Shown one piece after another: positions 12,024-63,641 of a stretch of 64,000 nucleotides of DNA. The stretch covers positions 168,589 to 232,588 of the forward strand of contig NZ_KB894800.1 in NCBI RefSeq assembly GCF_000374645.1. The letters are read 5' to 3'. How positions within the stretch are numbered: position 1 is the stretch's first letter; each line of letters starts with the position of its first letter. Made by a program: the position numbers and the translations under genes. This DNA is from Arhodomonas aquaeolei DSM 8974 (GTDB lineage Bacteria; Pseudomonadota; Gammaproteobacteria; Nitrococcales; Nitrococcaceae). The notes below the pieces were generated by a model that was not told the origin of the DNA, ran no database searches, and worked only from the letters and a program-made list of their open reading frames with translations.

Positions 12024-13103
12024 ATGCGGCTGCGCATCGTCACCTTCAACGCCGCGCTGAGCCGGCGGACACCCGGGGGCCTCGACGCGGATCTGGCCGC
12101 GGGCGACGCCCAGGCACTGGCCGTCGCCCGCATCCTGCGCCGCCTCCAGCCCGACGTGCTGCTCCTCAACGAGCTCGACTACACGCCCTGTGGCACCGCC
12201 CTGGTGCGCTTGCGCCGGGACTACCTAGCCGGCTCCGGCGTACCGGAACCGCCGCTGGTGTTACCCCACGCCTTCACGGCAGCGGTGAACACCGGCATCC
12301 CCTCCGGTCTGGACCTGGACCGCGACGGACGCCGCGACGGCCCGGCGGACGCACTAGGCTTCGGCGCATTCCCCGGCCAGTACGGGATGGCGCTGCTCTC
12401 CCGCCACCCGATCGCGACCGGCGCACGCACGCTGCGACGCCTGCTCTGGCGCGACGTACCGGGGGCATACCTCCCGCGGGATCCGGATTCCGGCCGGTCC
12501 TGGTACACGCCCGCCGCACTCGCGCGGCTGCCGCTGTCCTCCAAGAGCCACTGGGACATACCCGTCGACGTCGGCGGCCACCGGTTGCGCCTGCTCGCGA
12601 GCCACCCGACGCCCCCGGCCTTCGACGGTCCGGAGCGCCGCAACCACTGCCGTAACCACGACGAGCTGCGCCTGTGGCGGGACTACCTCGACGGTGCCGA
12701 CTACATCGTCGACGACCGGGGCGACCCCGGTGGCCGGCCCGACCACGCGCCGGTTGTGCTGCTCGGGGACCTCAATGCGGATCCGCATGACGGCAACGGC
12801 GACGCGGCGATGATCGATGCCCTGCGCCACCACCCGACCCTGCAGGATCCGGCGCCCCGCAGCACCGGCGGCGCGGCTCGCACTGCACAGGCTAAGGGCG
12901 ATCCAGCGCTGCACACCCTCGCCTCCGGCGGCTTCGGGCTGCGCGTGGACTACTGCCTGCCGGACCGGCGGCTGACGGTGCGGGACACCGGCGTGCACTG
13001 GCCGGCGCCAGGGGCGCCCGGCCACGAGCTGGTGGGCGATGGCCGCCGGGTGGTGAGCTCGGACCACCGCGCGGTGTGGCTGGACGTGGACTGGCCGCCG
13101 TGA
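12024..13103 (+). CDS. Endonuclease/exonuclease/phosphatase family protein
   Basis: A 359-residue protein of the EEP fold. Landmarks are RIVTFNAA at the N-terminus, LLNELDY (metal-binding Glu), VVLLGDLNADP and the C-terminal SSDHRAVWLDV with the catalytic Asp-His pair. No signal peptide is evident. Such proteins cleave phosphodiester bonds in nucleic acids or lipids; the substrate is not predictable. It converges with ilvA across a hairpin at 13126-13144. Confidence 0.83.
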   Translation: MRLRIVTFNAALSRRTPGGLDADLAAGDAQALAVARILRRLQPDVLLLNELDYTPCGTALVRLRRDYLAGSGVPEPPLVLPHAFTAAVNTGIPSGLDLDRDGRRDGPADALGFGAFPGQYGMALLSRHPIATGARTLRRLLWRDVPGAYLPRDPDSGRSWYTPAALARLPLSSKSHWDIPVDVGGHRLRLLASHPTPPAFDGPERRNHCRNHDELRLWRDYLDGADYIVDDRGDPGGRPDHAPVVLLGDLNADPHDGNGDAAMIDALRHHPTLQDPAPRSTGGAARTAQAKGDPALHTLASGGFGLRVDYCLPDRRLTVRDTGVHWPAPGAPGHELVGDGRRVVSSDHRAVWLDVDWPP

Positions 13104-33803: not shown

Positions 33804-34412
33804 TCAGCCCACCAGGCGTTCGAGTCCCTCGCCCCGTTTCATGCCCAGCCCCTGACGCAGGGCCCGGAGGACCCCCTCGTAAGCCTCCGGCCCGCGCAGG
33901 CGCGCAAGCTGCAGCGCCCCCTGGGTCGCGGCCAGGATCTGGTGCGCCGTGTCCGCCACGTCGTCAACGTGGGGAATGCTGCCATCGGCGAGCCCGGCCT
34001 CGAGCGTCTCGATGAAGAAACCGAGGACGTCCTGCAGCAGCGCATCCGCCTCGCGGCACATTGCCGGCGGCAGGCCGGTACGCTCCACGCCGACGACCCC
34101 CAGGGGACAGACGCGGTCGGCGGCGACGTAGCGCCCGTCCAGCTCGAAGAACGCCTCCAGCCGTGCCGACGCGTCCGCGCCTCGCGAGCGCTGGCGCTCA
34201 CACCACCAGCCGAAGTCCTCGCGCACACGGGCGAGCACGGCGAGGCCGAGATCCGCCTTTGCCGGGAAATGGTAGTGCACCGCGGCGGTGCGCACCCCCA
34301 GCGCCTCGGCGATGTGGTGATAGCTGAAACCGTTGAAGCCGCGCGCCTGCATCAGCCGCTGCGCGGTGGCCAGGATCGCCCGCCGGGTCTCGCCACGTGG
34401 TCGCCGGCTCAC
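33804..34412 (-). CDS. TetR/AcrR-family regulator
   Basis: A 202-residue regulator. The N-terminal helix-turn-helix (~10-55) reads GFNGFSYHHIAEALGVRTAAVHYHF split across FSYHHIAEALGVRTAAVHYH; the C-terminal domain has no recognisable ligand motif but resembles the AefR/LfrR-like TetR_C group. Its ATG overlaps the moaB stop (ATGA), so it is cotranscribed with moaB. Target unknown. Confidence 0.85.
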   Translation of the reverse strand: MSRRPRGETRRAILATAQRLMQARGFNGFSYHHIAEALGVRTAAVHYHFPAKADLGLAVLARVREDFGWWCERQRSRGADASARLEAFFELDGRYVAADRVCPLGVVGVERTGLPPAMCREADALLQDVLGFFIETLEAGLADGSIPHVDDVADTAHQILAATQGALQLARLRGPEAYEGVLRALRQGLGMKRGEGLERLVG

Positions 34413-34945
34413 GCCCCGCCTCCGCCGTGATTGGCGAACAGCACCAGCTCCGCCAGGTTGCAGGGACGGTGACGCACGTCGAGCTGATCGGCCAGGATGG
34501 CGTCCCAGGCGGTACGGCAGGCCCCGGTCGAACCCGGCAGGCAGGCGATGAACGTATGGTTCGCGAAGCCCGCGAGGGCCCGCGACTGGATCGTGGAGCT
34601 GCCGATCTCGGCATGGGAGAGCTGGCGGAAGAGCTCGCCGAAGCCCTCGACCTCCGCATCGAGCAACGGGCGCACGGCCTCGGGGGTATCGTCCCGGCCC
34701 GTGAAGCCGGTCCCCCCCGTGGTAAGCACGGCCTGCACGGCCGGATCCGCAATCCAGCGGGAGAGCACGGCACGGATCCGGTAGCGATCGTCCGGCAGGA
34801 TCTCACGCTCGGCAAGATGATGCCCCGCCGCCTGCAGGCGCTCGCACAGCAACGCACCCGAGCGGTCCTCGTCCACACCCCGTGTATCCGACAGCGTTAG
34901 CACCGCCATCGACAGCGGACGGAATTCCGGACTTGCCTCGTGCAC
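34409..34945 (-). CDS. moaB: Molybdenum-cofactor biosynthesis protein MoaB
   Basis: A 178-residue MoaB/Mog-type protein with LTLSDTRG, TTGGTGFTGRDDTPEAVRPL, SRALAGF and the LPGSTGACRTAWD motif. MoaB/MogA adenylylate molybdopterin before metal insertion. It stands apart from the moaA-moeA operon at 15.7-18.7 kb. Upstream (34946-35200) no gene is seen. Confidence 0.92.
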   Translation of the reverse strand: MHEASPEFRPLSMAVLTLSDTRGVDEDRSGALLCERLQAAGHHLAEREILPDDRYRIRAVLSRWIADPAVQAVLTTGGTGFTGRDDTPEAVRPLLDAEVEGFGELFRQLSHAEIGSSTIQSRALAGFANHTFIACLPGSTGACRTAWDAILADQLDVRHRPCNLAELVLFANHGGGGA

Positions 34946-35201
34946 GCTACCCCCTGCGTTGAACCGTCATACGTTACCGACTCCAATCCCGTCGGGCATT
35001 TTGTCCGGTGTCGGGGCACCTGCATGGGCTCAGGGCGCTCGATCCGCTCGGTCGCACCGGAGACACCCGCATCGCCCACTGCAGCGCAGACCGGTGACTC
35101 CGGTGATTATCGGCGTCCGGCACGGCCACGCCCCCATGCCTCTGACACGGCTAGTATTAGCATGATACCCGTCGCGGCGGCGACATCGAAGCCATATAAA
35201 T

Positions 35202-35244
35202 GATAATGAGAATGCTTGCTATTTGTGATCGATTCCCCTAGACT
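35202..35244 (+). promoter_or_regulatory. Fur-like box overlapping a promoter
   Basis: GATAATGAGAATGCTTGCT (35202-35220) matches 13 of 19 positions of the Fur consensus, with the first eight exact. It overlaps a -35 TTGCTA (35216-35221), followed by a 17-base spacer and -10 TAGACT (35239-35244). Transcription should start near 35251, so bound Fur would block it. Confidence 0.6.
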
Positions 35245-35250
35245 CTCCCC

Positions 35251-35325
35251 TGTCGCGACGGCTTTCGCGACTTGCGGGTAGTTCAAGCCTTTCGGGGACG
35301 TCATCGCGACGTCCCCGTTTTCTTT
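35251..35325 (+). ncRNA. Candidate Fur-controlled small RNA, about 75 nt
   Basis: From the predicted start the RNA would fold as hairpin one, GTCGCGA (35252-35258) and TCGCGAC (35265-35271) with loop CGGCTT. A single-stranded stretch (35272-35293) contains TTGCGGGTAGTTCAAGCC. A terminator follows: GGGGACGTC (35294-35302), loop ATCGC, GACGTCCCC (35308-35316) and GTTTTCTTT. There is no start codon with a ribosome site in the unit. The layout is that of an iron-responsive regulatory RNA acting like RyhB or PrrF; sequence homology to those was not tested. It precedes the oxidoreductase gene by about 105 bases but is separated from it by the terminator. Confidence 0.6.
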
Positions 35326-35390: not shown

Positions 35391-35411
35391 TTGTACAATA
35401 CTTGTATTGTA
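35391..35411. promoter_or_regulatory. Palindromic operator upstream of the photoprotection operon
   Basis: TACAATA (35394-35400) and TATTGTA (35405-35411) form a perfect dyad around CTTG, preceded by TTG so that the left half-site is TTGTACAATA. The same ten bases are both arms of the operator at 41308-41328. TACAAT also serves as a credible -10 hexamer, so a bound regulator would block RNA polymerase. The oxidoreductase ATG is 21 bases downstream. Confidence 0.7.
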
Positions 35412-35431
35412 TATTTACGGGGCGATAGGTT

Positions 35432-36736
35432 ATGGCACACAGACGCATCGCAGTGGTCGGGAGCGGCATCGCCGGGCTGGGAGCGGCCTGGCTGTTATCC
35501 CGCCGCCACGAGGTGGTGCTCTTCGAGGCGGACTCGCGTCTCGGTGGACACACACACACGGTGGACTGCGACCTCGCCGGCGGCCGGATCAGCGTGGACA
35601 CCGGCTTCATCGTCTACAACGAGGCCAACTACCCGCACCTTACCGCCCTGTTCGCGACCCTCGGCGTACCGACCCGGCCATCGGACATGTCCTTCGCCTT
35701 CTCCGCCAGCGATATCGACCTGGAATACGCGGGCGACAACCTCAACACCCTGTTCGCACAGCGGCGCAATCTGCTGCGGCCCGCGTTCTGGCGCATGGCC
35801 GGCGATATCCTGCGCTTCAACCGCGAGGGCGCCCGCGCCCTCGCCACGGACGCGCTGGACCACGACGAGCCGCTGTCGGCATTCCTCGACCGTATCGGCC
35901 TCGGCGAGGCCTTCCGGCGCTACTATCTGCTGCCCATGAGCGCGGCAATCTGGTCCTGTCCGCCGGAGCGGATGCTGGCCTTCCCGGCGGCAAGCCTGCT
36001 GCGCTTCTTCGCCAATCACGGACTCATCCGCCTGTCGGGCCGGCCGCAGTGGCGCACGGTCACCGGCGGTGCAAGGCGCTACATCGAGGCGATGCGCCCG
36101 GACCTCGGCGAAGTGCGGACCGGCTCCCCGGTCACCCGGATCCGCCGCGACGGCACGGGCGTTCACCTGCACGGCCCGTCCGGCGGGCTCGGACGGTTCG
36201 ACGACGTGGTCATCGCCGCACATGCCGACCAGGCCCTGGCGATGCTGGAGCAGCCGAGCCGCGGCGAACGCACGGTGCTCGGGCGTTTCCATTACCAGGC
36301 CAACGAGGCGTGGCTCCACCAGGACCCGGCACTGATGCCCCGACGCCGCACGGTGTGGTCATCCTGGAACCACCTCACCACGCACGCCGCCGATGGTTCC
36401 CGGCCGGTATCGGTGACCTACTGGATGAACCGGCTCCAGCGACCCGACACCGACGAGCCGCTGTTCGTGAGCCTCAACCCGGTACGCCCGCCGGCGCCGG
36501 ACCGGGTGATCCGCCGCCTGAGCTACGATCACCCGGTATTCGACGGCGCCGCGATGCGCGCACAGGCGGCGCTTCCACGGCTGCAGGGTGATGGCGGCGT
36601 GTGGTTCTGCGGCAGCTACTGCGGCTACGGCTTCCACGAGGACGCCCTGGCCTCGGCGGTCGCGGTCGCCGGGCGCCTGGGATGCGCGCCGCCGTGGACG
36701 CACGCCGTGCAGCGGGACGGCGGAAACACGGGATGA
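35432..36736 (+). CDS. FAD-dependent oxidoreductase (amine-oxidase-like, COG2907)
   Basis: A 434-residue flavoprotein. The N-terminal dinucleotide site is VVGSGIAGLGAAWLL, followed by FEADSRLGGHTHTVD, typical of the amine oxidase/phytoene desaturase fold. The C-terminal FAD part includes WFCGSYCGYGFHEDALASAV. In several proteobacteria a homologue stands with DUF1365 and CFA-synthase genes in light- or singlet-oxygen-induced clusters. The substrate is probably a modified lipid (inference). Its stop overlaps the ATG of the next gene (ATGA). Confidence 0.87.
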   Translation: MAHRRIAVVGSGIAGLGAAWLLSRRHEVVLFEADSRLGGHTHTVDCDLAGGRISVDTGFIVYNEANYPHLTALFATLGVPTRPSDMSFAFSASDIDLEYAGDNLNTLFAQRRNLLRPAFWRMAGDILRFNREGARALATDALDHDEPLSAFLDRIGLGEAFRRYYLLPMSAAIWSCPPERMLAFPAASLLRFFANHGLIRLSGRPQWRTVTGGARRYIEAMRPDLGEVRTGSPVTRIRRDGTGVHLHGPSGGLGRFDDVVIAAHADQALAMLEQPSRGERTVLGRFHYQANEAWLHQDPALMPRRRTVWSSWNHLTTHAADGSRPVSVTYWMNRLQRPDTDEPLFVSLNPVRPPAPDRVIRRLSYDHPVFDGAAMRAQAALPRLQGDGGVWFCGSYCGYGFHEDALASAVAVAGRLGCAPPWTHAVQRDGGNTG

Positions 36737-54507: not shown

Positions 54508-55316
<809 letters not shown>

Positions 55317-55317
<1 letters not shown>

Positions 55318-56156
55318 TGGCTGCGACCTACACGGCAGCGGTTGAGACCGCGCGCGAGTACTACAACAGCGACGACGCCGATAACTTCTACTACACGGTC
55401 TGGGGTGGCGAGGACATCCACATCGGGCTGTACAACAGCTCCGAGGAGCCGGTCTACGACGCCAGCCGGCGCACCGTCGCACGCATGGCCGAGAAGCTGC
55501 CGAAGATCGACGCGGAGACCCGCGTGCTCGATGTCGGCGCCGGCTACAGCGGCTCCGCGCGCTACCTCGCCAGGACCTACGGCTGCCACGTGACCGCGCT
55601 CAACCTCTCCGAGAAGGAGAACGAGCGGGCCCGGCAGAAGAATCGCGAGCAGGGCGTGGACCACCTCGTGGAGGTCATCGACGGCAGCTTCGAGGACCTG
55701 CCCTTCGACGACGCGAGCTTTGACGTGATCTGGTCCCAGGACGCGATCCTCCACAGCGGCGACCGTCCCAAGGTCCTGCGCGAGGTCGCGCGGGTGCTGC
55801 GCCCGGGCGGGCACTTCGTGTTCACCGACCCGATGCAGACGGACGACTGCCCGGAGGGCGTGCTCGATCCGATCTACGCGCGCATCCACCTCGAGACCCT
55901 CGGCTCCCCCGGCTTCTACCGCCGCGAGCTCAAGGGCCTCGGCTTCGAGGAGGTGGACTTCGAGGATCACACCGAGATGGTCGCGACCCATTACGGGCGC
56001 ATCCTCAAGGCGCTCACCGAGCACGAGGCCGATGTGGGCAAGCGGGTCAGCAAGGACTACATCAAGCGGATGAAGACCGGCCTGCAGCACTGGGTCGACG
56101 GCGGCCACAAGGGCTACCTGGCCTGGGGTATCTTCGTCTTCCGCAAGGCGGACTGA
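55317..56156 (+). CDS. sdmt: Sarcosine/dimethylglycine N-methyltransferase
   Basis: A 279-residue SAM methyltransferase, same length as the halophile enzyme. Motifs are YYNSDDADNFYYTVWGGEDI, LDVGAGYSGSARYLA, IWSQDAILHSGDRPKVLREV and FTDPMQTDDCPEG. It finishes the pathway by making dimethylglycine and glycine betaine, an osmolyte. Translationally coupled to the preceding gene. Confidence 0.95.
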
Positions 56157-56167
56157 GAATAGATCGC

Positions 56168-56198
56168 CGCGGGGCCCGGACGGCCCCGCGTTCGTTTC
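56168..56198 (+). terminator. Hairpin after the methyltransferase genes
   Basis: CGCGGGGCC (56168-56176) pairs with GGCCCCGCG (56182-56190), followed by TTCGTTTC. It is a likely intrinsic terminator or attenuator between the methyltransferase pair and metK, which starts 53 bases later. Confidence 0.65.
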
Positions 56199-56250
56199 AA
56201 CGGGCAAGGACCGTTAGAATGCCCGGTTCACCCATGACAGAGAGTGATTC

Positions 56251-57414
56251 ATGAGCAAGAAGTATCTCTTTACCTCGGAATCCGTTTCTGAAGGCCACCC
56301 GGACAAGATGTGCGACCAGATCTCCGATGCGATTCTGGACGCCTACCTCGCCCAGGACCCGAAGGCGCGCGTCGCCGCCGAGTCCGTCGCCCAGACGGGC
56401 ATGGTGCTGATCGCCGGCGAGACCAAGTCCTCGGCCACCGTGGACATCGAGAAGATCGTGCGCGACACGGTCGCCGAGATCGGCTACGACAGCTCCGAGA
56501 AGGGCTTCGACTACGCCACCTGCGCGGTGCTCAACGCGCTCGGCGCACAGTCCGAGGACATCAACCAGGGCGTCGACCGCAGCCGCCCGGAGGATCAGGG
56601 CGCCGGCGACCAGGGCCTGATGTTCGGCTACGCGTGCAACGAGACCGACACCCTCATGCCCGCGCCGATCGACTTCGCCCACCGCCTGGTGCGCAAGCAC
56701 TCGGAGCTGCGCAAGAACGGCACGCTCCCCTGGCTGCGTCCCGACGCCAAGAGCCAGGTCACCTTTGCCTACGACGACGCCGGCCGGGTCACGGGCTGTG
56801 ACGCCGTGGTGCTGTCCACCCAGCACGACGACGACATCACCCAGGAGCAGATCCACGAGGCGGTGATGGAGCACATCGTCAAGCCGGTGCTGCCGTCCGA
56901 GTGGCTGCACGGCGACACGAAGTTCCACATCAACCCGACCGGGCGGTTCGTCACCGGCGGCCCCCTCGGCGACTGCGGCCTGACCGGGCGCAAGATCATC
57001 GTCGACACCTACGGCGGCATGGCCCGTCACGGTGGTGGCGCGTTCTCCGGCAAGGACCCGTCCAAGGTCGACCGTTCCGCCGCCTATGCGGCACGCTACG
57101 TGGCCAAGAACGTCGTCGCCGCCGGTCTCGCCGACAAGTGCGAGGTCCAGCTCTCCTACGCCATCGGCGTGGCCGAGCCGACCTCCGTGATGCTCGAGAC
57201 CTTCGGCACCGGCAAGATCGACAACAGCCAGCTCACCGACATCGTCCGTGAGATCTTCGACCTGCGCCCGTTCGGCATCCTCAAGATGCTCGACCTGGAG
57301 CGTCCGATCTACGCCGGCACCGCCGCCTACGGGCACTTCGGCCGCGTGGACATCGACCTCCCCTGGGAGAAGACCGACAAGGCCGACGCGCTTCGTCAGG
57401 CCGGCGGCAAGTAA
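56251..57414 (+). CDS. metK: S-adenosylmethionine synthetase
   Basis: A 387-residue enzyme with [49 protein letters not shown] and [20 protein letters not shown] (split by position). It makes SAM from methionine and ATP, here next to two enzymes that use three SAM per betaine. It is followed by the SAH riboswitch and ahcY. Confidence 0.97.
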
Positions 57415-57444: not shown

Positions 57445-57530
57445 CGTCCGTTGCCGAGGAGCGCTGCAACCCCCGAAGCATCGTGGGGGCCAGGCTCGGC
57501 GGACGGACGCGACATTCGACAACGGCGCTC
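57445..57530 (+). promoter_or_regulatory. SAH riboswitch upstream of ahcY
   Basis: The conserved SAH-element core is present: CCGAGGAGCGCTGCAAC (57454-57470), a CCCCC/GGGGG hairpin (57470-57489), GGCCAGGCTCGG (57488-57499) and AACGGCGCTC (57521-57530). P1 pairs CGTCCG plus CCGAG with CTCGGCGGACG. The pseudoknot pairs GAGCGC (57459-57464) with GCGCTC (57525-57530). The ahcY ribosome site GGAG is at 57541. In known cases S-adenosylhomocysteine binding raises ahcY expression. Confidence 0.93.
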
Positions 57531-57550
57531 GGTGACCAACGGAGTGAACC

Positions 57551-58966
57551 ATGAACGCAGTCGTGGACAACACCCGCACCGACCACCACGTTGCCGATCT
57601 CGCCCTTGCCGACTGGGGTCGCAAGGAGATCGCTATCGCCGAGACCGAGATGCCCGGTCTCATGGCGCTGCAGGAGAAGTACGGCAAGGAAAAGCCCCTC
57701 AAGGGCGCGAAGATCGCCGGCTCGCTGCACATGACCATCCAGACCGCCGTGCTCATCGAGACATTGGTCGAGCTGGGTGCCGAGGTCCGCTGGGCCTCCT
57801 GCAACATCTACTCCACCCAGGACCATGCCGCCGCGGCCATCGCCGACCAGGGCATCCCGGTGTTCGCCTACAAGGGCGAGAGCATGGAAGAGTACTGGGA
57901 GTTCACCCACCGAATCCTCGACTGGCCGAACGAGGACGGTCCGAACCTGATCCTCGACGACGGTGGCGACGCGACCGGCGTGGTCATGGTCGGCGCCAAG
58001 GCCGAGCAGGACCCCTCCATCCTCGACAACCCGAGCAACGAGGAGGAGCGCGCCCTCTTCCCCGCGATCAAGAAGCGGCTCGAGGAGCGCCCGGGCTTCT
58101 ACACCCGCATCAAGGAGCAGATCCGCGGGGTCAGTGAGGAGACCACCACCGGCGTCAACCGCCTCTACCAGATCGCCCGCGACGAGGGCCTGCCCTTCCC
58201 GGCGATCAACGTGAACGACTCGGTGACCAAGTCCAAGTTCGACAACCTCTACGGTTGCCGCGAGTCGCTGGCCGACGGCATCAAGCGCGCCACCGACGTG
58301 ATGGTCGCCGGCAAGACCGCCGTGGTCGCCGGCTACGGCGACGTCGGCAAGGGCTCCGCGCAGAGCCTCAAGGGCCTCGGCGCCCAGGTCTGGGTCACCG
58401 AGATCGACCCCATCTGCGCGCTGCAGGCCGCGATGGAGGGCTTCCGCGTGGTGACCATGGACTACGCCGCGGACAAGGCGGACATCTTCGTCACCGCCAC
58501 CGGCAACTACCAGGTCATCACCCACGAGCACATGAAGGCCATGAAGAACGAGGCCATCGTGTGCAACATCGGGCACTTCGACAACGAGATCGACGTGGCC
58601 TCCCTCCAGCAGTACGAGTGGGACGAGATCAAGCCGCAGGTCGACCATATCGTCTTCCCCGACGGCAAGAAGATCATCCTGCTCGCCCAGGGCCGGCTGG
58701 TGAACCTGGGCTGCGGCACCGGCCACCCGAGCTTCGTGATGTCCAACAGCTTCTCCAACCAGGTGCTCGCGCAGATGGCGCTGCATGCCAACAAGGGCGA
58801 GTACGAGAAGGAGGTGTACATCCTGCCGAAGCACCTCGACGAGGAGGTCGCCCGGCTGCACCTGGAGAAGATCGGAGCCGATCTCACCGAGCTCAGCAAC
58901 GAGCAGGCGGCCTACATCGGCGTCTCCAAGGAGGGGCCGTACAAGCCGGAGCACTACCGCTACTGA
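57551..58966 (+). CDS. ahcY: Adenosylhomocysteinase
   Basis: A 471-residue enzyme. It has [20 protein letters not shown], the NAD-binding [28 protein letters not shown] and the conserved C-terminal PYKPEHYRY. It hydrolyses SAH to homocysteine and adenosine, relieving product inhibition of the methyltransferases. Controlled by the SAH riboswitch just upstream. Confidence 0.97.
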
Positions 58967-61626: not shown

Positions 61627-62907
61627 TCAGACCCCGTCCGCGCCGACGCCGGGGCCGCGCAGGCACGCGGCCGGGTCGTTCGGGTCGAAATGCGCCCCGT
61701 CGAAGAAGCGGTCCGCGCCCATGGGGATCGGTGCCGTCGCCGTCTCCAGCTGCCACCCGCCGGCGTGGACGCCCTCCTCTTTCCAGTCCGCCTGCGGGGC
61801 GGGCAGGCCAAGGTCCGCGGCGGCCTCGCGGTAGAGGTCCGGGCGGTACGTCCGTGCCACCGCCTCGTCGACGGCGGCATCCATGTCGAGCTGTCCCCAG
61901 CGTTCCATCTGCATGGCGAACCACAGCCCGTGGGAGCGCCACGGGAAGTTCGCCGCGTAACGCGAGAACACGGTGAAGTCCGGGATCCTACGCGGCCGCG
62001 CGGCGATGCCGTCGCGGAACTCGCCGCCGAGGGTCGCGGCGAGGACGTCCTCGTCGACGCCCACGTACTCCGGACGTGCGAGCAGCCGGGCGGCGCTGCG
62101 GCGGTTGGCGCCGTCGGCGTCCAGCCAGCGGCAGGCGTGGAGCAGCGCCCGCAGCACCGCACGGTGAGTGGCGGGGTGGCGCTGCGCCCAGTCCTCGGTC
62201 ACGGCGAAGACCTTCTCGGGGCCGTTGTTCCAGATCTCGTAGCTCGAGATCAGGCTGCAGCCCGCGCCGCGGGCGACGGCGAAGCCGTTCCACGGCTCAC
62301 CGGCGCAGAAGCCGTCGATGCGGCCCTCCTCCAGGTTGGCGGCCACGAACTGCGGCGGGATCACGATCAGGCGCACGTCCCGGTCCGGGTCGATCCCCGC
62401 CGAGGCCAGCCAGTAGCGGAGCTGGTAGGTGTGACCGGAGACCGGGAACACCGTGGCGAAGGTCAGCGGCCCCGCCCCCTGCCGCCGGTCCGCCTCGATC
62501 ACCCGGCGCAGGGCGTGGGCGGTGATCGGCCGCCGCGCCATCGCCTCCGGGTCGGTGCGGCAGAGGCGCTCGTAGAGGCGGCGGGAGACGGTCACCGCGT
62601 TGCCGTTGAGGTTCAGGGTCAGGGCCGTGACCATGGGCTTGCGCGGGCTCACCACACCGAGCGTGCCCGCCAGGGGCATGGGGCCGAGCATCTGTGCGCC
62701 GTCCAGGGCGCCGAGCTGGACCTTGTCCCGTACGTTCGCCCACGAGGCCTCCCGGGTGATGCTCACGTCCAGCCCCTGCTCGGCGAAGAAGCCCATCTCC
62801 CGCGCCACGACCAGCGGCGCGCAGTCGCTCAGCGGAATGATCCCGAGGCGCAGCTCCCGCTTCTCCGGCGGGGCGCCGGCCCCCGTTTGCCCTGATCCTG
62901 ACGACAT
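61627..62907 (-). CDS. nasS: Nitrate/nitrite sensor NasS-like protein
   Basis: A 426-residue protein of the NrtA/CmpA binding-protein fold: LRLGIIPLSDCAPLVVAREM, LDGAQMLGPMPLA, NLEEGRIDGFCAGEPWN and NFPWRSHGLWF. It lacks a signal peptide, so it is cytosolic, as expected for NasS rather than a transporter subunit. It lies 23 bases after an ANTAR regulator gene. In known pairs NasS holds NasT inactive until nitrate or nitrite binds. The longer open frame upstream overlaps nasT. Confidence 0.88.
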   Translation of the reverse strand: MSSGSGQTGAGAPPEKRELRLGIIPLSDCAPLVVAREMGFFAEQGLDVSITREASWANVRDKVQLGALDGAQMLGPMPLAGTLGVVSPRKPMVTALTLNLNGNAVTVSRRLYERLCRTDPEAMARRPITAHALRRVIEADRRQGAGPLTFATVFPVSGHTYQLRYWLASAGIDPDRDVRLIVIPPQFVAANLEEGRIDGFCAGEPWNGFAVARGAGCSLISSYEIWNNGPEKVFAVTEDWAQRHPATHRAVLRALLHACRWLDADGANRRSAARLLARPEYVGVDEDVLAATLGGEFRDGIAARPRRIPDFTVFSRYAANFPWRSHGLWFAMQMERWGQLDMDAAVDEAVARTYRPDLYREAAADLGLPAPQADWKEEGVHAGGWQLETATAPIPMGADRFFDGAHFDPNDPAACLRGPGVGADGV

Positions 62908-62930
62908 CGTGATCCTCCCTTCGCCGTCGC

Positions 62931-63491
62931 TTAGTCGAGCAGCTCGCGGGCCAGCTCGTAGAGACTGAGGCGCCGGTCCATGGCCATCTTGCGCAGGCGC
63001 TGGTAAGCGGCCTCCTCGCCGATGCCCTGGCGCTCCATGAGCAGGCATTTGGCGCGGTCCACCGCCTTGCGCTGCTCCAGGCTCTGCTGCACCCGCCCGA
63101 GCTCCGAGCGCAGCGCATCGTGGGCCTGGAAGTGCGCGATGGCGACGTTCACCAGCGAGCGTACGGTCGCCGGGGCCAGGCCGTCGACCACGTAGGCGCT
63201 GACCCCGGCCCGCGCCGCCTCCAGGCTGACCTGCGGGTCGTCCTCGTCGGCGAGCATGACGATGGGGCGCGGGAAGCGCCGGCCGAGCTGGGCGAGGTGC
63301 TCCAGGGTGTCCCGGCTGGGCAGCTCGGCGTCGACGATCACGGCATCCGGGGCGAGCTCGGTCATGCGCGCATAGAGGTCGTCGCGCTCATCGACGCTCG
63401 CCACGACCTCGAAGCCCGCGTCGGTGAGCGCCTGTTCCAGCGCCCGCGAGCGTCTGTCCTTGGCCTCTATGAGCAGGATGCGTGCGGCCAT
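62931..63491 (-). CDS. nasT: ANTAR-domain antiterminator NasT
   Basis: A 186-residue protein. A receiver-like domain (~1-120) with ILLIEAKDRR and DAVIVDAELPSRD is followed by an ANTAR domain (~125-183) with AVDRAKCLLMERQGIGEEAA and LRKMAMDRRLSLYE. ANTAR proteins bind paired hairpins in leader RNA to prevent termination. Divergent from a nitrate transporter. Start is the ATG at 63491; an earlier in-frame start adds 15 residues without domain match. Confidence 0.9.
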   Translation of the reverse strand: MAARILLIEAKDRRSRALEQALTDAGFEVVASVDERDDLYARMTELAPDAVIVDAELPSRDTLEHLAQLGRRFPRPIVMLADEDDPQVSLEAARAGVSAYVVDGLAPATVRSLVNVAIAHFQAHDALRSELGRVQQSLEQRKAVDRAKCLLMERQGIGEEAAYQRLRKMAMDRRLSLYELARELLD

Positions 63492-63641
63492 TGCCTGCCC
63501 CGTGACAGCGGATAGTCCATGCCCTGAAACCAGCAACTGTCATGCCACATTGCCCGGTGAACCCGCACCCCGCGGTGTGGCGCCGGCCAGGGCCCGCCGG
63601 CACTGCGCGACATGCCCCGGCAGCACCCGGATCTGCCCCGC

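Follow-up and report, generated by a model that had tools for sequence, protein, structure and literature searches.

A predicted Fur-repressed, iron-sparing small RNA in Arhodomonas aquaeolei

Introduction

Does a 486-bp spacer of the Arhodomonas aquaeolei DSM 8974 genome encode an iron-responsive regulatory RNA? The window analysed here, a stretch of 64,000 nucleotides, contains within this spacer a unit at 35198-35325 (+) with a Fur-like box, a promoter, a hairpin and a terminator, which a preliminary description made from the letters had read as such an RNA. Few lineages are known to carry iron-sparing RNAs, for which a repeated origin is proposed, IsrR of Staphylococcus being one of independent origin (PMC9410917). 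The Fur-regulated sRNAs NrrF (Neisseria), HrrF (Pasteurellaceae) and BrrF (Burkholderia) are each restricted to their lineage and do not resemble one another in sequence (PMC4144887, PMC7377471). A literature search returned no iron-sparing RNA described for this gammaproteobacterial group. On the basis of sequence and computation, we predict that the locus very probably encodes a Fur-repressed, trans-acting iron-sparing sRNA.

Results

Anatomy of the locus

The unit lies between a MoaB-like gene and an operon headed by an FAD oxidoreductase (Table 1), and is single-copy in the 3.96-Mb genome, which also encodes Fur, Hfq and Fe-superoxide dismutase (Fe-SOD). The promoter region had been described as a 13/19 Fur-like box overlapping a -35, followed by 17 nt and a -10, and each of these elements is present in the sequence. 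An operator overlapping the promoter characterizes Fur-repressed iron-sparing sRNAs, and the predicted operator, to which Fur would bind, overlaps the -35 in this manner.

Table 1 Features of the locus and of the nasT region (window coordinates)
Feature	Position	Strand	Details and basis
MoaB-like gene	34409-34945	-	divergent, left neighbour
Fur-type operator, extended, AAATGATAATGAGAATGCTTGCTATTT	35198-35224	+	pattern, matrix, same layout at other iron promoters
Core operator 19-mer GATAATGAGAATGCTTGCT	35202-35220	+	13/19 identical to GATAATGATAATCATTATC
Promoter	35216-35244	+	-35 TTGCTA 35216-35221, 17-nt spacer, -10 TAGACT 35239-35244
Predicted small RNA, ~71-73 nt	35251-35321	+	start inferred from -10, end at T-tract
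5' hairpin	35252-35271	+	perfect 7-bp stem GTCGCGA/TCGCGAC (35252-35258 with 35265-35271), loop CGGCTT
Open pairing stretch TTGCGGGTAGTTCAAGCCTTT	35272-35292	+	21 nt, sRNA nt 22-42; target scans and controls
Intrinsic terminator	35293-35325	+	CGGGGACGTC-ATCGC-GACGTCCCCG then TTTTCTTT
FAD oxidoreductase	35432-36736	+	heads operon with DUF1365-like protein, cyclopropane-fatty-acid synthase, transporter
nasT, ANTAR response regulator	62931-63491	-	Pfam ANTAR and Response_reg; adjoins nitrate-assimilation genes
Predicted nasT pairing site, 17-34 nt 5' of the gene	63508-63525	-	rank 2 of 1,578 starts

The perfect 7-bp hairpin of the preliminary description was found as stated, while its other dimensions required small corrections: the open stretch is 21 rather than 22 nt, the terminator stem 10 rather than 9 bp (35293-35302 with 35308-35317, loop of 5), and the RNA ~71-73 nt rather than about 75. 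The T-tract after the terminator is short and interrupted (TTTTCTTT). The predicted RNA folds with -34.1 kcal/mol (z -3.3, single strand, against 200 shuffles). Its sole start codon is a TTG without a ribosome site, in agreement with the earlier statement that no coding frame fits. Rfam searches, with E values of up to 5 admitted, returned no family for the site, RyhB (RF00057), PrrF and NrrF included; by sequence, the predicted RNA is outside all RyhB/PrrF families.

Just 5' of the FAD-oxidoreductase/cfa operon, window 35391-35415 reads TTGTACAATACTTGTATTGTATATT. Relatives (L019-L034) keep the TGTACAAT element in the corresponding position, and it may be a promoter belonging to the operon itself, possibly light- or MerR-type-controlled.

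Operator and terminator compared with chance

A 13/19 Fur count is common, with four such 19-mers within the window. With a Fur matrix, no other site in the window scored as high: it reached 19.4 and the next unrelated site 10.9, and overlapping matches occurred at shifts of 6 bp. The pattern RATAATGANAATNNTTNNC with at most two mismatches gave 14 matches in the genome and 1 in the reversed control; three of the 14, the window site among them, have a single mismatch. The other genomic matches that were read precede ExbB-like, periplasmic iron-binding-like, TonB-receptor-like and haem-related genes, as named from their translations. A stricter matrix, from which one palindromic site had been left out, ranked the window site only about 15th in 2 Mb, and the Fur box alone is therefore of mid strength.

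The same operator-to-"-10" layout was found by covariance search at iron-uptake genes of other gammaproteobacteria. Of three operator matches there, one precedes a cupredoxin/FTR1 iron permease, another is flanked by FeoAB and a porin, and the third by a TonB-type receptor and a haem-type binding protein. When the iron promoters L129 and L131 are aligned, their -10 lies as far from the operator as it does in the window; the spacing is equal, since one iron promoter has TTTGTGATTAATACCGTTAGAATATCC in place of the window's TTTGTGATCGATTCCCCTAGACTCTCC.

Perfect stems of 9-12 bp that are rich in G+C and run into TTTT have a frequency of 9.2e-6 per strand-base, which corresponds to a chance of 7e-4 within 80 bp. 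Among the 14 Fur-pattern sites of the genome, the window site is the one with a terminator within 220 bp, and none of the Fur-pattern sites of four relatives has a comparable terminator at sRNA distance.

Predicted targets of the open stretch

Genes were called with our own simple caller, in 1.26 Mb and then in a disjoint 0.8 Mb, covering about half of the genome. The scan took account of the accessibility of the RNA and of the start regions, and recorded ungapped pairings, 7 bp or longer, in the region from -45 to +25, where 0 is the first start-codon base. It supersedes an initial duplex-only scan that ignored accessibility, in which sodB (encoding Fe-SOD) ranked 185th of 352 and nirD had a high rank that later vanished.

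In the first sample (1,020 starts), nasT ranked 1st, encapsulated ferritin 2nd, aconitase A 4th and Fe-SOD 6th. The ferritin pairing, UUGCGGGUAGU with ACUACCCGCAA at -40 to -30, consists of 11/11 Watson-Crick pairs; the aconitase A site is predicted at -29 to -19, and that of sodB at +9 to +18, inside the coding start. For the second, disjoint sample (618 starts), the expectation was written down before scanning. Here sdhC ranked 2nd, with 10/10 Watson-Crick pairs (GGGUAGUUCA with UGAACUACCC, -35 to -26), a 2Fe-2S oxidoreductase subunit ranked 3rd, and SufC and a second 2Fe-2S subunit were in the top 20.

The combined list comprises 1,578 gene starts, with Pfam-confirmed iron proteins at ranks 3 (encapsulated ferritin), 5 (aconitase), 6 (sdhC), 7 (2Fe-2S protein), 9 (Fe-SOD), 20 (cbb3 oxidase), 24 (ilvD), 34, 41 (class I fumarase) and 50. 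The earlier proposal of iron-protein targets is thus supported by aconitase, sdhC, Fe-SOD and encapsulated ferritin, all near the top. The scan also supports its proposed seed, TTGCGGGTAGTTCAAGCC, of which most pairings employ the 5' two thirds (UUGCGGGUAGUUC). Most predicted sites miss the ribosome site and lie 20-40 nt 5' of the start codon. Several classic iron operons, namely nuo, isc, sdhA/B and nirB, were not among the predicted targets of the scan. Because the open stretch matches the starts of several iron-using enzyme genes, the RNA probably spares iron in the manner of RyhB.

The strongest single pairing, rank 1 of the combined scan, was to a GGDEF-EAL gene (L242:7883-9628, -). Its start region (L242:9610-9640, -) is complementary to sRNA nt 23-41 almost throughout, with a duplex energy of -28.7 kcal/mol, and the pairing covers the TTG start. 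This pairing is only a lead, because 21 of 249 natural stretches have an equally strong partner.

The nitrate-assimilation group to which nasT belongs extends over window 61627-63491 (-) and L188:459-7941. It comprises nasT and a nitrate-binding-like gene, divergent from genes for a nitrate transporter, nirB, nirD, assimilatory nitrate reductase and a siroheme methyltransferase.

Controls on target enrichment

Iron-cofactor or iron-storage proteins made up 10 of the 50 top-ranked genes and 1 of 50 random genes (Fisher p 0.004), and five of the top ten were iron-cofactor proteins (p 0.0003). When 24 genes were marked as homologues of E. coli iron genes, blind to rank, 3 of them stood among the first 10 and 6 among the first 50 (~0.8 expected). 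For acnA, sdhC, sodB and fumA, classic RyhB-type targets in the literature but fixed as a quartet after the first ranking had been seen, the log-rank sum was -20.1, against -4.1 +/- 1.9 for 233 shuffled stretches (best -10.5) and -3.8 +/- 1.4 for 249 genomic 21-mers of like composition (best -8.7), and 0 of 482 control stretches reached the four-gene score. Among these genes, sodB had been picked as a test gene before any scan. By computation, the open stretch is an accessible seed complementary to the 5' regions of iron-protein mRNAs, as is characteristic of iron-sparing sRNAs.

Conservation

BLASTN of the unit against 59 relatives and the whole order returned only short matches, rejected as chance; one of them, of 24 nt, lies inside a ureidoglycolate-lyase gene. 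A covariance model built from the single sequence was searched against 273 genomes of the class. Its matches were weak, and the six best that were examined cover essentially the operator and -10 only. Neither the 54 genomes of the order nor 273 of the class, among which there is no other genome of the same genus, yielded a homologue, and a search of named genomes carrying the downstream gene returned no close relative. Relatives that keep the MoaB / FAD-oxidoreductase arrangement have a short spacer without the unit. The absence of homologues in order and class, together with this syntenic spacer, indicates that the RNA is lineage-restricted, as known iron-sparing sRNAs usually are.

With no homologues in the order or class, covariation cannot be demonstrated, and the homologues with compensatory changes that define a conserved family were not found among the relatives searched, none of which is of the same genus. 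The preliminary description had named a lack of conservation in close relatives as evidence against an sRNA. This was found in part, as searches of the family and order, in a set with no same-genus genome, returned no homologue.

Three of the covariance matches examined (L128, L130 and L132, near position 1500, in gammaproteobacterial genomes) were discarded as ends of a palindromic repeat element. The repeat, GGGGTCGGTGACAAAT...ATTTGTCACCGACCCC, has a Fur-box-like A+T-rich centre, resembles the ends of small mobile elements, and mimics Fur boxes in searches.

Alternative explanations

The Fur promoter might instead serve the downstream operon (FAD oxidoreductase, DUF1365, cyclopropane-fatty-acid synthase, transporter), with the hairpins forming a leader with an attenuator. 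The operon is indeed on the same strand, beginning 115 bp 3' of the terminator, but relatives without the Fur unit keep the operon's own promoter-like TGTACAAT just before the start, and a leader would leave the specific complementarity of the open stretch to unlinked iron genes unexplained; we regard this arrangement as very unlikely. That pairing enrichment would be equally unexplained if the Fur site drove a leftward transcript to the MoaB-like gene, the rightward RNA being incidental. Divergent genes are often served by Fur boxes, and a weak minus-strand promoter-like match overlaps the box. Such a transcript would, however, need a leader of ~250 nt, MoaB-like genes are not classic Fur targets, and on the rightward side there are a strong terminator and a -10 whose distance is conserved, which together make this the least probable of the alternatives.

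The unit could also be a chance juxtaposition of a Fur-like box and a hairpin-terminator, never transcribed as a regulator and with coincidental complementarity. The commonness of a bare 13/19 match and the lack of conservation beyond this genome in the order and class searches are compatible with this. The probability of ~7e-4 for a terminator at such a distance is not, and neither is the target statistic, which no control stretch attained and which held in the second, disjoint gene sample. Coincidence is thus highly improbable, and a trans-acting sRNA accounts best for the unit. Counting against the sRNA reading are the lack of homologues in the order and class searches, the mid strength of the box, the interrupted T-tract, the position of most predicted sites away from the ribosome site, and the classic iron operons missing from the predicted targets.

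Discussion

The features of the locus are consistent with an iron-sparing mechanism analogous to that of RyhB. In the presence of iron, Fur-Fe(II) would occupy 35198-35224 and block the overlapping promoter. Under iron starvation, Fur would leave, and an RNA of ~73 nt would be made, its end set by the terminator (35317). The open stretch of this RNA (nt 22-42, core UUGCGGGUAGUUC) would pair, probably with Hfq, with the mRNA 5' regions of aconitase, SdhC, Fe-SOD, encapsulated ferritin, a 2Fe-2S oxidoreductase subunit, IlvD, cbb3 oxidase and class I fumarase, and perhaps of NasT as another target. We infer that pairing represses rather than activates, such that expression of dispensable iron proteins would fall and iron would be freed.

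RyhB of Enterobacteria is likewise a short Fur-repressed RNA, and the predicted sodB, sdhC, aconitase, fumarase and iron-storage targets correspond to the classic RyhB-type set; however, the predicted RNA has no sequence or Rfam match to RyhB, other neighbours, its own seed UUGCGGGUAGUUC, and predicted sites that for the most part precede the ribosome site. PrrF1/PrrF2 of Pseudomonas and ArrF of Azotobacter are also gammaproteobacterial sRNAs under Fur repression, with targets of the sodB, aconitase and succinate dehydrogenase type, whereas the predicted RNA is single-copy, shorter and without sequence match to them. It shares lineage restriction and, by prediction, Fur regulation with NrrF, HrrF and BrrF, again without a sequence match, and while HrrF is family-wide, the window RNA was not found beyond one genome. 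IsrR has aconitase and nitrate-metabolism targets in common with those predicted here (PMC9410917), but is 174 nt long, with C-rich regions and a Gram-positive host. The predicted targets, with nasT beside nitrate-assimilation genes, agree with the published picture of iron-sparing RNAs.

We lean, by a modest degree, towards a young iron-sparing sRNA of one genus or species, independent of RyhB, PrrF, NrrF, HrrF and IsrR, that would have acquired the same targets by convergence and may add encapsulated ferritin, NasT and possibly a c-di-GMP phosphodiesterase. If so, the locus would be a natural example of how an iron regulator is born: the same target logic would have come from an unrelated, lineage-restricted RNA, with a concrete seed and a target list that includes encapsulated ferritin. 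It would also mean that reading a sequence without tools is able to find a real regulator.

Additional observations

A 43-bp near-perfect inverted repeat with a Fur-like core, ATTCCGGTACATGACAATGAGAATCATTGTCATGTACCGGAAT, is present at L006:1488-1530 (G000 contig C22, about 12410-12450). It lies directly 3' of a ribonucleotide-reductase beta-like gene; after it come a -10-like TATACT and a G+C-rich stretch that may be structured.

An SAH riboswitch (Rfam RF01057, 59.8 bits) was detected at window 57450-57537 (+), directly 5' of an adenosylhomocysteinase-like gene (57551-58966). The methyltransferase and SAM-synthetase-like genes that precede it (54508-57414) resemble a cluster for glycine-betaine synthesis.
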